A stretch of 30,440 nucleotides of DNA from positions 1-30,440 of the IMG/VR virus record IMGVR_UViG_3300042465_003045. One strand, 5' to 3'. Below the pieces are notes generated by a model. The model worked only from the letters and a program-made list of their open reading frames with translations, did no database searches and was not told the DNA's origin. Shown piece after piece: positions 2,784 through 29,507 of this stretch. The position numbers and the translations under genes are program-made. Numbering within the stretch: position 1 is the stretch's first letter; every line of letters starts with the position of its first letter. This DNA comes from a virus.

Positions 2784-3313
2784 TCGCCTCACTCCCCATC
2801 CACAAATATGTCTGGGTCGATAGCTGCTTCATCCGCGCCGGACGACAAAGCGGCTCAGGCTTTGAAAAAGCAGTATGGTTCGGCCTCGTCAGCCAGTACG
2901 GGCGCACCTGGGGGCTTAACGTCATGCTGGAGTGCGGAGCTATCTATCGCAGCCTCCCGCCGCATGCGATTGCGTTTTGCGATGAGCCTGAGCAAATGTG
3001 GGCCGTCACTGATGCTCAATTGTGGGACTGCTACGCCGATAAATTCCAACTGCATGAGTATAGTTATCTCAAAGAGATGACGGCCAAAACAAAAGACCAC
3101 AGCGGCACATATCTATTCACCGCCGCGTTTACTGATGACGGATTCACCCGCGCACCAGAGCAGCAGAAAGAGTTCAGCTTCATCGAGCTAGACAACGGTC
3201 GCCTTACGATCCAGCCCACGAACCGCATTCTGTTCGAGGACAGGTCGTTCACCGTGGACAGCGGCCCACCAAAAAACTTGGTGACGCAAACAGAAATATG
3301 GTCGTGCGAATAA
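2780..3313 (+). CDS. Conserved-looking hypothetical protein
   Basis: A 177-residue soluble protein and the largest of the early block. It mixes strands and helices and contains stretches such as LECGAIYRSLPPHAIAF, FQLHEYSYLKEM and ELDNGRLTIQPTNRILFED that look like a compact globular fold. No catalytic motif is recognisable. It is coupled to the preceding gene by an ATGA overlap. Its stop directly abuts the stop of the convergent membrane-protein gene at 3314, leaving no room for a terminator. I recall similar phage hypothetical proteins but no function. Confidence 0.65.
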   Translation: MIASLPIHKYVWVDSCFIRAGRQSGSGFEKAVWFGLVSQYGRTWGLNVMLECGAIYRSLPPHAIAFCDEPEQMWAVTDAQLWDCYADKFQLHEYSYLKEMTAKTKDHSGTYLFTAAFTDDGFTRAPEQQKEFSFIELDNGRLTIQPTNRILFEDRSFTVDSGPPKNLVTQTEIWSCE

Positions 3314-3617: not shown

Positions 3618-4739
3618 TCATGCTGCGGGCCTTTCGATCTGATCCACCATTGTGATGCGCCGGCCAATCCAAGACATAACGGGAACTGCCATAGAGTTCC
3701 CCAGCGCCTTGTAGCGCGGCCCGTCAGCGGCCATGCCGTTGCGGTAGGGGATAAGGGTGTAATCGTCGGGGAAGCCTTGAAGGCGCTCGCACTCGCGCGG
3801 GGTTAGGCGGCGCACTTGGCTGGCCTGCATCACCGCTGTGCCACCCTGGGAACAGGTCGGGTTTAGCCCCGTGGCCGCGTCCAGCGTCGTGCTCGTGGCT
3901 TCATCGGTGCAAACGTAAAATCCACCATCTGGACGGTCTGCGCGTTTAGAGCCGCCATAAATGTTGATTGGCGTGCCGCGCCCTGTCCCATCTTCGCTTG
4001 CGTCAAAGCCATCGGCCCGCAGGGAGTGGGTGACAAGCATTCCGCATTCGGCGTCCTGCTGTGTTGCGCCGCCCTTGGCGTTTAAAGCCCTAGCGATTAG
4101 ATGACCGGCCTGATCTTGGTTATCGTCCGCGCCGCATGTTCCAACGCCGTTTGCAGTGAGCGCGGCAACTCCCGGCCCCGCTTGGCGCGGCGCAGTATCC
4201 CCGCGCAGGCTTTCGCGCTCAAAAAGAACCGCTGCGGCACGTTGCCAGTCTCCAAGGTGTCCGACAACGAACACACGGCGGCGGCGCTGGGCCACTCCGA
4301 AGTACTGAGCGTCAAGCACTCGATAGGCGAACCCATACCCGAGTTCTGCCAAGCCCCCGAGGATGGAACCAAAGTCCCGTCCTCCGTTCGATGACAGTAC
4401 ACCGGGGACGTTCTCCCAAACCACCCATCGGGCGCGTGAGCGGCGAGCAAGTTGAAGAAACGCGAGGGCCAGGTTGCCACGCGCGTCGCCCAAGCCGCCC
4501 CGCAATCCTGCGATCGAAAAGCTCTGGCAGGGGGTTCCGCCGACAAGAATGTCAATTGGTTCATATTCGCCCTCGCGAATGGTGGTGAAGTCCCCATGCA
4601 ACGGCACATCGGGATAGTGGTGCGCGAGGACCGCCCGCGGGAATTTGTCGATCTCGGAATAGAAGGCCGGCCGCCAGCCGAGCGGATGCCATGCGACCGT
4701 GGCCGCTTCGATGCCGGAACAGACTGAGCCGTACCGCAT
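3618..4739 (-). CDS. C5-cytosine DNA methyltransferase
   Basis: A 373-residue protein that transfers methyl groups from AdoMet to cytosine C5. Conserved motifs are in order: I, GSVCSGIEAATVAW (4-17), binding AdoMet; IV, GGTPCQSFS with catalytic Cys71; VI, WENVPG (108-113); VIII, QRRRRVFVVG (151-160); IX, RRLTPRECERLQGFP (310-323); X, YKALGNSMAVPV (343-354). The region between VIII and IX (about 180-308) would hold the target-recognition domain and is rich in Gly/Thr/Asp. No restriction endonuclease is adjacent, so it probably protects phage DNA from host restriction. The ATG overlaps the stop of a possible leader peptide, and its GAGGG ribosome site lies inside a hairpin. The recognised DNA site cannot be read from the sequence. 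Confidence 0.95.
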   Translation of the reverse strand: MRYGSVCSGIEAATVAWHPLGWRPAFYSEIDKFPRAVLAHHYPDVPLHGDFTTIREGEYEPIDILVGGTPCQSFSIAGLRGGLGDARGNLALAFLQLARRSRARWVVWENVPGVLSSNGGRDFGSILGGLAELGYGFAYRVLDAQYFGVAQRRRRVFVVGHLGDWQRAAAVLFERESLRGDTAPRQAGPGVAALTANGVGTCGADDNQDQAGHLIARALNAKGGATQQDAECGMLVTHSLRADGFDASEDGTGRGTPINIYGGSKRADRPDGGFYVCTDEATSTTLDAATGLNPTCSQGGTAVMQASQVRRLTPRECERLQGFPDDYTLIPYRNGMAADGPRYKALGNSMAVPVMSWIGRRITMVDQIERPAA

Positions 4740-4856: not shown

Positions 4857-5735
4857 TCATGAGCCGCACATCCCGGCATCGCAGCCCGAACCGCTGTGGC
4901 TTTCTTCCAACTCAAAAACGCCTTGGTCGGTGGCATACGCGCCGGGGGGAGAATTGGCCCATCTGACGATTTCCCTGATACCTAGCGCGCCCATCTTTTT
5001 TGCGGGACGAAACATCAATCGCGGTTTGCCGAGCTTGGTAAAACCCAACTCCTGCTCAAGCGCCTCAACCTTGGCAATGTCGAGAGGCGTAAGGCGTCTT
5101 AGATCGGATTTGTTTGCGTTAATGCAGGGCGAACATTCTTTGCTGCGATGGGGCAGAACTTCAAAGCAAGCCAGCAGCACAAGCGCGTTGCGTTCGGCCT
5201 CTTTCATATCAATCAGCGGACATTTTGTGGTGCGTCCGCCCGACGCCGGGTCATCTTCGATAATGGCGGGGAACGTCCTGCGCTTCTCGGATTCCTCCCG
5301 GCGCACACCGATCATTGAGATAGCCATGCGCTCAGGATCGTGCTCGTCCAACCAAGCGATAGTGGGCAGGATTTTCAGGTGCTCGGTGCAGAACTGCATA
5401 CCGGAACGAGGCCAGCCGGACTTTTTGCGGACAAGCGCGGGCAGGCCCATCGAAGTTGTGCGAGCAACCGCAAAGCCGTAACTCCGAGCCAACGCCTCGC
5501 CTCGCTCAACCCGTGCCATCCAATCAGCGCGAGCCCAGCCCGTATCGTTGTAAAGGCACACGACGCCATCAAGCCCCGCTTCATGCGCCCATCGAATGAG
5601 CGCAATGCTGTCATTGCCGTAAGACACTTTCAGAACGAACTTGAACCCGACCCCGCTCACCGTGTCACGCACCGCCCCCGCCCCGTCCCCACCTTGGATG
5701 CCGTCTAAGCGCGTAAGCGCCGCTTCATTGACCAC
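4857..5735 (-). CDS. PAPS-reductase-like / PP-loop family protein
   Basis: A 292-residue protein of the adenine-nucleotide alpha-hydrolase (PAPS reductase/DndC-like) superfamily. VSYGNDSIALI (37-47) is the variant PP-loop, GVRREESEKRR (about 143-153) matches the family G-R-x-E-S motif, and CTEHLKILP follows Cys116. Later cysteines (172, 190, 201, 204, 285, 290), including C-S-P-C, could hold an Fe-S cluster. Family members activate sulphate or adenylate substrates; DndC-type relatives take part in DNA sulphur modification. GTG at 5735 is chosen because AGGAG lies seven bases upstream; an ATG at 5741 directly abuts it. It lies just before the C5-methyltransferase, so a role in DNA modification or evasion of host defence is plausible but unproven. 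No DndD/E or sulphur carrier is visible. Confidence 0.8.
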   Translation of the reverse strand: MVNEAALTRLDGIQGGDGAGAVRDTVSGVGFKFVLKVSYGNDSIALIRWAHEAGLDGVVCLYNDTGWARADWMARVERGEALARSYGFAVARTTSMGLPALVRKKSGWPRSGMQFCTEHLKILPTIAWLDEHDPERMAISMIGVRREESEKRRTFPAIIEDDPASGGRTTKCPLIDMKEAERNALVLLACFEVLPHRSKECSPCINANKSDLRRLTPLDIAKVEALEQELGFTKLGKPRLMFRPAKKMGALGIREIVRWANSPPGAYATDQGVFELEESHSGSGCDAGMCGS

Positions 5736-6057
5736 GTTCATTCTCCTGGGCTGTGTTCGTGAAAAACTGAGCTTTGTCTTCGTCGGTGGCGACCCGCCAA
5801 CCTTCAAGGTCGTAATCAACATCAACCTCGCCATAGTAGTCTCTCGAGTAAAACGCTACGAAGCCAAACAGGAAATAGGTGCCGGGTCCAGGCGGCTTGA
5901 ACAGATTACTAAGCGCGTCTTGAAGCATCCCCGCATCGTGTTCGATCTCTGCCGACTGCCCGTTGTGCAGTAGTTCATCAACTTCAAGTCCAGGCCACTC
6001 GCGGCTGTCGCCTTCGGTCAGTTCGATCAGGATGTTGCTAGGTGCTGCTGAACCCAT
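5725..6057 (-). CDS. Small acidic hypothetical protein
   Basis: A 110-residue acidic protein with a central aromatic stretch (GPGTYFLFGFVAFYSRDYYG) and an Asp/Glu-rich end. ATG at 6057 is chosen: it overlaps the upstream stop as TGATG and has AAGG eight to nine bases upstream; a GTG one codon earlier is possible. Its stop overlaps the next start. Acidic proteins of this size sometimes mimic DNA, but charge alone does not support that here. No family recognised. Confidence 0.55.
   Translation of the reverse strand: MGSAAPSNILIELTEGDSREWPGLEVDELLHNGQSAEIEHDAGMLQDALSNLFKPPGPGTYFLFGFVAFYSRDYYGEVDVDYDLEGWRVATDEDKAQFFTNTAQENERGQ
5735..5760 (-). repeat. Duplicated gene leader, copy 2
   Basis: Second copy of the 26-base leader found at 3548-3573, with one mismatch. 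It contains the AGGAG ribosome site used by the PAPS-reductase-like gene and overlaps the 3' end of the preceding gene. Confidence 0.7.
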
Positions 6058-26502: not shown

Positions 26503-26534
26503 AAAAAACAGCGCGGAGACGTTGCCCCGCGCTG
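26503..26534 (-). terminator. Intrinsic terminator after the decoration gene
   Basis: On the minus strand, CAGCGCGG and CCGCGCTG (26534-26527 and 26516-26509) form a perfect 8-bp stem, followed directly by six T (26508-26503). It starts ten bases after the decoration-gene stop. Confidence 0.85.
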
Positions 26535-26544
26535 TTGTTAGAAA

Positions 26545-27133: not shown

Positions 27134-28105
27134 CTAGGCTTGAATGCGACCCTGGAACTGCGCGCCACTGCTGGTTAAATTGCCCGCCCAGCCAAGGATT
27201 TGGACTTCCGCGTCCTGGTTGACCGAGTAACGCTTGTTCGGGCTGAGAGCGACCATGTTCCTGTCCTTGTGCGGGCGCAGGAAGATGTATTTGGTGTTCA
27301 GCGAGAACATCAGCGAAGAGCCGATGTAGCCGCCGATGCCGCCGTCCAGAACAACGTCTGCATCCATAAATTTAATCGTCGGGAAACCGAGCGAACCAGT
27401 TTCTGGAGACGTAAACCGCTGAATGGCCTGCAGCGAGGTCATATAGTAAGTCCAGAAGATGCTGTCCGAGACGATCAGGTCAGGGCGGTCAGAGCCGCGG
27501 ACCTGGCTGGCCCACATCGAGTTCATCGCGGCCTGGATCGTCGTCGCAGACGGAGTCACCGACGCTGTGCTGAAGTCATACAGCTGCGAACGCCAGAACG
27601 CCCAAGTAGCGCGGTTGATGCCGCCGTAGGTGCCAGTCGTCGGATCAGAAGGCACAGCGGCGTTGAGGCCGGTGACTTCTTTGCCGCCGCTGCCGGTGCC
27701 GTCGCTGTAGATCGACTGCGCCAGGAGGTTCGACATCGTGCTTTCGGCTACGTTGATGCGGCCTTCAAGCAAGTCGATGAAGGCTTCTTTGCCGCTGTTC
27801 TGCAGCATTTCAAGGCCGGAAATCACAACCGGGCAGGCGAGCTGCTTAATGTTGAACTCAGCCGCGCTGATGACATCAGCCGCCGCAACCGGCAGCAGAT
27901 CATAACCGCTGTAGAACGCGCCGTTGCTGTTCTGCGCGTAGCTCAGTTCCTGCAGGATGACGTTACCGCCACCGATCGTCTTGACGTTGCCGCGCATGTT
28001 GAGCTTGGCAAGCAGGGCATTATTCTTGGTCACGTTGTCCGCAATAGCGCGACTACGATTTTGAATTGTCGTTGCTACGATGTCCGTAGTGTTCGGAAAA
28101 GCCAT
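27134..28105 (-). CDS. Major capsid protein
   Basis: A 323-residue protein of HK97-type fold. Features are an N-terminal helix (TTIQNRSRAIADNVTKNNAL), the E-loop-like part GGNVILQELSYAQNSNGAFY, a long spine helix (EGRINVAESTMSNLLAQSIY), SDRPDLIVSDSIFWTYYMTS and a C-terminal MVALSPNKRYSVNQDAEVQI. It forms the shell. It follows the scaffold gene after an unusual 330-base leader and precedes a decoration gene. GGAG lies seven bases before the ATG. Confidence 0.9.
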   Translation of the reverse strand: MAFPNTTDIVATTIQNRSRAIADNVTKNNALLAKLNMRGNVKTIGGGNVILQELSYAQNSNGAFYSGYDLLPVAAADVISAAEFNIKQLACPVVISGLEMLQNSGKEAFIDLLEGRINVAESTMSNLLAQSIYSDGTGSGGKEVTGLNAAVPSDPTTGTYGGINRATWAFWRSQLYDFSTASVTPSATTIQAAMNSMWASQVRGSDRPDLIVSDSIFWTYYMTSLQAIQRFTSPETGSLGFPTIKFMDADVVLDGGIGGYIGSSLMFSLNTKYIFLRPHKDRNMVALSPNKRYSVNQDAEVQILGWAGNLTSSGAQFQGRIQA

Positions 28106-28436
28106 CTGAAATCTCCATGAGGAAAGGGTTCACGGAACAGGTACTGCTCCGCGTGACACACGTTCGTTCCTTGCAGCGGAACTAATGTGGTCGCCTCATG
28201 TTCGGGCCTTGGCCCGATGGCACAGTGACCGCGACGAAACAACGGTGGGAGCCTTAGCTCTCCGATGGCGTTATTCGCTGCACGTTCTTGCGGCACAGTT
28301 TTAACTATTATTTGATATTGCTGGTGGTGCTTATCTGACGTGGCGTTCCAACCGGATGATGCCTTACAAATAAACGTCCAGCTTTTATCAAAGGACAATC
28401 TTAAAAGTGCCGCAAGCTATCATGCAATTTTTAACA
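28106..28436 (-). ncRNA. Structured 5' leader of the major capsid gene
   Basis: About 330 bases without a convincing gene. In the minus-strand RNA, CTTGCGGCAC (28416-28407) pairs perfectly with GTGCCGCAAG (28296-28287), closing a 110-nt domain. Downstream are hairpins at 28260-28249, 28217-28202 (7-bp arms), 28182-28166 (5 bp) and 28151-28133 (8 bp including one G-U pair, a UAC loop). The last lies about 28 nt before the capsid start. A regulatory RNA or processing site for high capsid expression is one reading. I recognise no known riboswitch or ribozyme core. Confidence 0.5.
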
Positions 28437-29507
28437 TTAACGGCTGTGGCTGGCAATAGCAGCCTCGATAGCGCCCCTGACGTCTAACGCGGTCTGCTGA
28501 GGCGCTCCTAATGCCGGCGCACCACTGACGCTTACCGCCGCCGACTTTGCCTTCTGCGCGGCCCCTGTGAGCTTCTGCGCGCCTTGTGCCTTCTGACGAG
28601 CAATCAAGACCGACCTCACACGCTCATTGCCGGCACACGCCTGTTTATACGCATCGCCAAGCGATAGGTCGCGACCGCGCCTCTGGGCCATTTCCATTAG
28701 ATCGGCCATGTCTTCGCGGACGTCCTCGGCAAACTCAGCCCGCTCAATAAAGTCGAGAACCTCGCTTTCGGCTTGGCGCGCTACGTTCTGTTGCGCTTGC
28801 GCCTGTGCGCTTTGGTGTTGGTTCATAAACTGTTGGATCGGCGCCAGCTGCTGCTGCATGGCCTGCTGGAGTTGCTGCTGCTGCGCGTCTACGCGGGGGA
28901 TCTCGCCCACTAGGGCGCTATCGAGCTGCTCGATGAAGCCCTGCCCAAAGCGACCGACGCCAAACTGCTTCACCAGACCAGACACCAGTTGCGCGATATC
29001 CTGCGAGGAGCCTGTCCGCAACCGCGCCGCGGTGGACATTAGGTTGTCGATCGCCTGGAGCGGGTTAGAGTTCTCGGCCTTGATGAACATCTGGTAAGGC
29101 GCAATCGTTCGCTCGATCTGTTCGGCATACTTACGCGCCTCGGCAGTCTCTTTTAACGTAGACTGTACCTCGCGTTCGCGGCGTGCGACCTCTGTTCGCA
29201 CCGCCTCTGGCAGCGCGGCCCAATGTTCGCGTGTTTCGGGGTGCCAAGATGCCGGCGCACGGGCTTCCGTCTTAGACGGAGAAGATTTAGGCCCGGGGCG
29301 TATGCCTACACTCTCGTCAAACTTGGCTTCTGTAGGTTTGTCTTCTGTCGGCTTAGCTTCTTTAGCGCGTAATTGCGGGCGCTCTGGCTGCGCTTCTTCT
29401 TTCGGAGCAGGCTCTGGCGCCGGCGTGTTGTCTACGACTGTTTCGACAACATCATCTTCTGGCATCGCCGCTTCGATTGACTCGCGGATCGAGGGTTCAT
29501 TTTCCAT
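28437..29507 (-). CDS. Scaffold-like protein
   Basis: A 356-residue highly charged, helical protein. It starts with an acidic, proline-rich region (EAAMPEDDVVETVVDNTP, PAPEPAPKEE), then ASWHPETREHWAALPEAVRT, ARREREVQ, long glutamine-rich coiled coil (QQQLQQAMQQQLAP) and a helical end. Capsid scaffold proteins have this composition, and the gene is directly before the major capsid gene. It would guide shell assembly and leave the prohead. The start overlaps the upstream gene by 11 bases. Confidence 0.8.
   Translation of the reverse strand: MENEPSIRESIEAAMPEDDVVETVVDNTPAPEPAPKEEAQPERPQLRAKEAKPTEDKPTEAKFDESVGIRPGPKSSPSKTEARAPASWHPETREHWAALPEAVRTEVARREREVQSTLKETAEARKYAEQIERTIAPYQMFIKAENSNPLQAIDNLMSTAARLRTGSSQDIAQLVSGLVKQFGVGRFGQGFIEQLDSALVGEIPRVDAQQQQLQQAMQQQLAPIQQFMNQHQSAQAQAQQNVARQAESEVLDFIERAEFAEDVREDMADLMEMAQRRGRDLSLGDAYKQACAGNERVRSVLIARQKAQGAQKLTGAAQKAKSAAVSVSGAPALGAPQQTALDVRGAIEAAIASHSR

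Follow-up and report, generated by a model that had tools for sequence, protein, structure and literature searches.

The leader of T7 gene 10 carries the phi10 promoter together with an RNase III site. The locus described here resembles it in that a predicted internal promoter and a structured leader immediately precede the major capsid gene; T7, unlike the phage studied here, uses its own polymerase, and it is not known to have HNH-derived sequence or a comparable family of multi-hairpin leaders. Autogenous leaders, such as those of ribosomal-protein operons, share with the phage leader a structured 5′ untranslated region (UTR) that is supported by covariation and ends at the Shine-Dalgarno sequence, but the phage leader has no known ligand and no Rfam match. 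HEARO and omega RNAs, found with IscB-type HNH open reading frames (ORFs), provide another case of an RNA associated with an HNH ORF; here, in contrast, the HNH protein of approximately 195 amino acids is far smaller than IscB, the RNA lies inside the coding sequence, and no Rfam hit was obtained. Group I introns can carry homing-endonuclease genes, as in the capsid gene intron of mycobacteriophage LittleE (PMC3706429), and are likewise structured RNAs of capsid regions in which a nuclease gene may be present or absent (PMC3706429). The leader differs from them in being intergenic, with no visible exon junction and no match to an intron model, and in that the ORF of the nuclease crosses the folded RNA and extends as far as the ribosome-binding site. 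Phages also carry free-standing HNH homing endonucleases (PMC3706429), which, like the HNH genes reported below, are intergenic and patchily distributed among close relatives (PMC3706429); at the present locus, in contrast, the coding sequence doubles as the leader of the next gene.

The window, the whole 30,440-nt stretch that was analyzed, is an IMG/VR phage contig in which the structural genes are on the minus strand. The features that delimit the leader are as follows.

27134-28105, minus strand: major capsid gene of the Mx8 type (phrog_9953 major head protein, E 5e-111).
28437-29507, minus strand: upstream scaffold-like gene, named from its position only and without a PHROG hit.
28113-28116, minus strand: Shine-Dalgarno sequence GGAG of the capsid gene, read from the sequence.

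A gap of 331 nt (28106-28436) separates the two genes and sits on the capsid mRNA (minus) strand. One open frame of 107 codons (28075-28398, minus strand) spans the leader into the capsid gene, but it is not conserved: among the leaders of relatives, the length differences are not divisible by 3, and stops occur in all frames of the mRNA strand, the sole exception being frame 0 of L022. A coding explanation for the gap in the window was accordingly rejected, as its single long frame is lost in relatives, and the initial annotation was right that no coding frame explains the window gap, although the DNA of the gap is homologous to a coding HNH gene. Elsewhere in the window, a strong intrinsic terminator-like hairpin (12 pairs, 8 of them G-C) followed by a T run lies between structural genes at 26507-26536 (minus strand), and a phosphoadenosine phosphosulfate reductase-like gene (phrog_424; 4857-5834, minus strand) adjoins a DNA methyltransferase gene (3618-4739, minus strand).

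The minus-strand RNA of the gap has a minimum free energy of -132.4 kcal/mol, compared with -94.3 ± 5.1 kcal/mol for dinucleotide shuffles (z = -7.55, with 0 of 100 shuffles as low), whereas the complement strand folds at a z of -2.77 against such shuffles. Structure beyond chance, claimed initially from the letters of the window, is thus borne out on the mRNA strand. The elements of the fold are listed below.

28287-28416, minus strand: 5′ rod domain, in which a 10-bp basal stem (28416-28407 paired to 28296-28287) is followed by an irregular helix to an apical hairpin (28363-28342); from the fold and the consensus of nine close relatives, with double-sided changes.
28277-28281, minus strand: GCAGC, proposed to pair with the P5 loop as the 5′ strand of a pseudoknot; one pair changed on both sides.
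28243-28264, minus strand: hairpin P2, with a 1x3 internal loop A/CCA; from covariation and motif enrichment.
28198-28223, minus strand: hairpin P3, with the loop of P2 in mirror order (CCA-hairpin-A); inner pairs are GC, CG, AU, and UA across relatives.
28116-28200, minus strand: closing helix P4, CATGAGG (28200-28194) with CCTCATG (28122-28116), ending at the Shine-Dalgarno sequence; from covariation.
28157-28189, minus strand: hairpin P5, whose loop holds GCTGC (28177-28173), the proposed pseudoknot partner; from covariation in two helices.
28131-28155, minus strand: hairpin P6; from columns 292 to 314 of the nine-relative consensus, including a G-C to A-U change, and from the hand table.

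The 10-bp long-range stem was given exactly by the initial annotation (CTTGCGGCAC with GTGCCGCAAG on the minus strand). The smaller hairpins, of which it counted four, also exist (P2, P3, P5, and P6), and the G-U pair that it noted at 28133-28151 falls inside P6. The stem does enclose 110 nt, but these form a long irregular rod and not an open loop. Absent from that annotation were the closing helix P4, which also belongs to the core (28284 to 28106), and a probable pseudoknot in the core. Within the basal stem, a double-sided change between A-U and G-C was found among the nine close relatives. The pseudoknot pairing GCAGC:GCTGC becomes GCAGA:TCTGC in HNH-class relatives and is weakly tested, as it is otherwise invariant.

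For comparison, 199 capsid loci were collected, of which 107 were nonredundant, and approximately 100 related loci retain a leader in the gap upstream of the capsid gene. Across relatives it precedes the capsid gene and ends at its ribosome-binding site. The gaps fall into the following classes.

227-336 nt: window-type leaders (type B).
171-211 nt: type A leaders, the majority class.
141-163 nt: leaders of BUCT555, Mx8, and Mx9.
About 605-624 nt: HNH-class gaps, filled by an HNH ORF.

More distant relatives mostly have short gaps with no recognizable leader.

The consensus fold of the nine close relatives contains 96 pairs, 11 of which show double-sided changes, and over its cells G-U pairs outnumber A-C mismatches by 111 to 6; the strand that folds is therefore the mRNA. 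When all window-type subgroups were aligned, MAFFT misplaced helices, so hand-set strands and a model-based alignment were used instead. The core model R2, built from 11 window-type sequences, retrieves the other window-type subgroups at full length (E 4e-17 to 1e-5). In the resulting alignment (A6), which is fitted to the R2 structure and so leans to the model, 90.4% of cells are paired, with 138 double-changed cells against 50.3 in shuffled alignments (0 of 500 shuffles reach this number) and a covariation score of 0.319 against 0.122 shuffled and at most 0.053 when the partners are slid. P4 is paired in 96.6% of cells in A6 and has double changes in four pairs, while P6 is poorly aligned there, at 69% paired. 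The registers of P2, P3, and P4 are anchored by flanking letters that hardly vary, and they recur in the hand table, for which the helix strands were picked manually. In their own MAFFT alignment, type A leaders are 94.3% paired, with 88 double-changed cells against 30.3 shuffled and a score of 0.349 against 0.127. Compensatory changes across the stems are thus found in both types, and the structured RNA leader proposed initially is strongly supported by covariation in relatives. A structured leader RNA, with a conserved fold, compensatory changes on the mRNA strand, and its end at the ribosome-binding site, is well supported, and it would act in cis.

The type A model, R1, retrieves no window-type, Mx8, or Mx9 leaders, and a single covariance model for all leaders is therefore not claimed; R2 reaches one type A leader, L081, at an E value of 0.014. 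The relationship between types A and B may be limited to their modules. A search of Rfam 15 with the window gave no match at the gathering threshold and none that was meaningful at E values up to 10, and five relatives gave none that was meaningful at E values up to 5; for these sequences, group I and II introns, HEARO, and the known self-cleaving ribozymes were thus discarded as candidates. A literature search found no description of the leader, and we regard these leaders as an undescribed family of capsid leader RNAs in phages with Mx8-type capsids.

The initial annotation had offered an internal promoter region as an alternative to a structured RNA, and this stands as a prediction whose position is conserved.

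28419-28456, minus strand: predicted internal sigma70-like promoter, TTGCCA (28456-28451), 17 nt, and TAAAAA (28433-28428), from its match to the consensus.
28424-28419, minus strand: alternative -10 element CATGAT.

The -10 element of the best site starts 2 to 3 nt past the upstream stop codon in 56 of 64 type A leaders, all 10 HNH-class leaders, and 11 of 21 window-type leaders, a further 4 of the 21 having it at +12. A simple scanner likewise predicts a promoter at the site in the window, where the -10 element, TAAAAA, is weak. The promoter is treated as a prediction because sites were scored with a hand-written sigma70 weight matrix and the -35 element overlaps codons of the upstream gene. 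The structured leader and the internal promoter are probably both real. Given a sigma70-like promoter just past the upstream stop, a capsid transcript probably has the leader as its 5′ UTR, and the rod stem of the window would then start near the 5′ end of that transcript. In L082 (BUCT555), the gap (locus 2860-3000) holds a consensus promoter, TTGACA-17-TAGAAT, with an operator-like inverted repeat, CACGGCCTCCGGGCCGTG, in the spacer.

The hairpin with the A/CCA 1x3 loop is common to type A, window-type, Mx8, and Mx9 leaders. It was counted 18 times in type B against 0.7 expected, 16 times in type A against 0.5, and 4 times in Mx8, Mx9, and BUCT555 against 0.15, or approximately 14 to 32 times the shuffled expectation depending on the class, although the related sequences are not independent. 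A resemblance to the C-loop motif was considered. That the loop recurs above expectation, in more than one hairpin of a leader and in either orientation, is what would be anticipated if the core were bound by a protein of the phage or the host (for example capsid, scaffold, or a late regulator) in a feedback control of capsid translation, with the A/CCA loop as the recognition unit; as a recurrent loop may be merely a good structural module and the sequences share ancestry, we consider this reading rather unlikely. In L063 (2774-3000), the A/CCA-type hairpin occurs approximately three times in succession. In type A leaders (L056, 2860-3000, and others), the CCU after the A/CCA loop can pair with AGG either upstream, forming P2, or downstream; the alternative pairing, CCUACG:CGUAGG, also covaries in part, and a two-state switch is possible.

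In several relatives (L020, L049, L052, L058, L259 to L263, and others), the same gap is filled by the gene for the HNH protein (2410-2994 in L020). Its match to Pfam HNH is below the cutoff (E 0.018 to 0.059); it matches phrog_1035 endonuclease VII at 7e-10, and the motif DHIVPL...NLQ...N is visible. The window leader is homologous to part of this gene.

28156-28203, minus strand: nucleotide homology to the HNH genes of L020 and L049 (blastn, 86% over 50 nt, E 4e-9), corresponding to the 3′ end of the gene.

In the window, 28182-28156 reads VPLQGTNVC in one frame, a relic contained in the 107-codon frame, and DHI lies in a different frame. Some homologs thus do encode a protein here, but the RNA stands, because the same coding sequence holds a fold beyond what the protein needs. 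Eight HNH-class genes were tested by permuting synonymous codons over the last 75 codons, and in every one of them 0 of 100 permutations were as stable (z = -2.3 to -4.5), compared with a mean z of -0.28 (standard deviation, 1.32) for 52 HNH homologs elsewhere; the HNH coding sequence therefore carries a fold in excess of the protein requirement, a trait that belongs to the capsid locus in the set of HNH genes examined. R2 retrieves six HNH-class leaders at full length (E 7e-10 to 2e-8) but misses all 12 HNH genes taken from other loci; a subclass (L046, L052, L262, and L263) that lacks part of P4 gave no R2 match at E values up to 10. The RNA fold is under selection at a conserved place, and it is present inside the HNH gene to which the leader is homologous. 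A scan of the collection for TGCCATC..GAACATGA returned mostly chance matches; among those listed, the capsid-locus contig L122 was the sole HNH-like match. In several HNH-class members, a hairpin recognized by eye also covers the start codon region of the HNH ORF.

The HNH class requires seven changes on the capsid tree, at least six of them forced by supported branches. It is scattered among the type A loci, to which it is adjacent on the tree, and is present in some but absent from other near-identical relatives; L052 (HNH) and L056 (type A) do not differ in their trimmed capsid rows. The HNH gene may therefore act as a mobile homing element. This scatter among leader-only relatives, the promoter and start region common to type A and the HNH class (82% over 40 nt, E 4e-5), and the position of the fold within coding sequence would also suit an RNA that is mainly part of a selfish HNH element, an intron-like folded cassette, whose leader-only forms are remnants that resist reinvasion without benefit to the capsid gene. 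This is an unlikely account: no Rfam intron or HEARO match was obtained, the element abuts the promoter and the Shine-Dalgarno sequence with no exon junction visible, and the leader-only forms retain compensatory changes across wide divergence, which requires that selection on the RNA continued in the absence of the nuclease.

The position of the structure resembles the T7 case, and a long irregular rod could be a substrate for RNase III, so that an RNase III or RNase E site splitting the capsid message from the upstream message, as in the T7 gene 10 leader, can be envisaged; it is improbable, as the rod is the least conserved part (absent from type A and unlike in L009) and conservation lies in the core with P2, P3, and P4. 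A fold arising by chance, or a plain pseudogene lacking any RNA function, has the HNH homology and one open 107-codon frame in its favor but is scarcely credible given the fold z score, the covariation of both types, the synonymous-codon test, and the loss of the frame in relatives.

On balance we favor the reading that the gap is a folded capsid leader RNA with a promoter at its 5′ end, most likely derived from an HNH gene. Under this reading, a transcript dedicated to the capsid would start from a sigma70-like promoter located where the upstream gene ends. The rod-shaped stem may tie up the 5′ end of that transcript and so protect a message needed in bulk, as inferred from bacterial mRNAs with paired 5′ ends. 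The core (P2 and P3 with the A/CCA loop, P4 with P5 and P6, and the probable pseudoknot) abuts the capsid Shine-Dalgarno sequence and might tune ribosome loading, so that the leader would have a role in both mRNA stability and capsid translation. The leader would be a former HNH gene at the same place, the frame having been lost and the preexisting RNA fold kept. Descent from HNH gene to leader, and not from random spacer, appears most likely; for the matching segment the protein-to-RNA direction is the more natural because the conserved HNH motif occurs in unrelated loci, descent from leader to gene being less likely. The simplest account would be a required fold in the capsid 5′ UTR, occupied repeatedly by HNH genes that carry the fold, with the window lineage having lost the frame. 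More tentatively, a mobile HNH gene may have taken over the capsid 5′ UTR by carrying the leader RNA within its frame, leader-only and nuclease-bearing forms being two states of one cassette that swaps between phages and loss of the frame leaving a free-standing regulatory RNA.

The leaders represent an undescribed, directly testable family of capsid leader RNAs in phages with Mx8-type capsids, and the HNH-class loci are a case in which the same nucleotides encode the predicted catalytic domain of a nuclease and fold into the leader of the next gene. With such an overlap, it would be understandable that a selfish gene does no harm in front of a gene that is essential and strongly expressed, and that protein-coding DNA can give rise to a regulatory RNA. 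If the two-state cassette is true, this would be a regulatory RNA born from a selfish gene.
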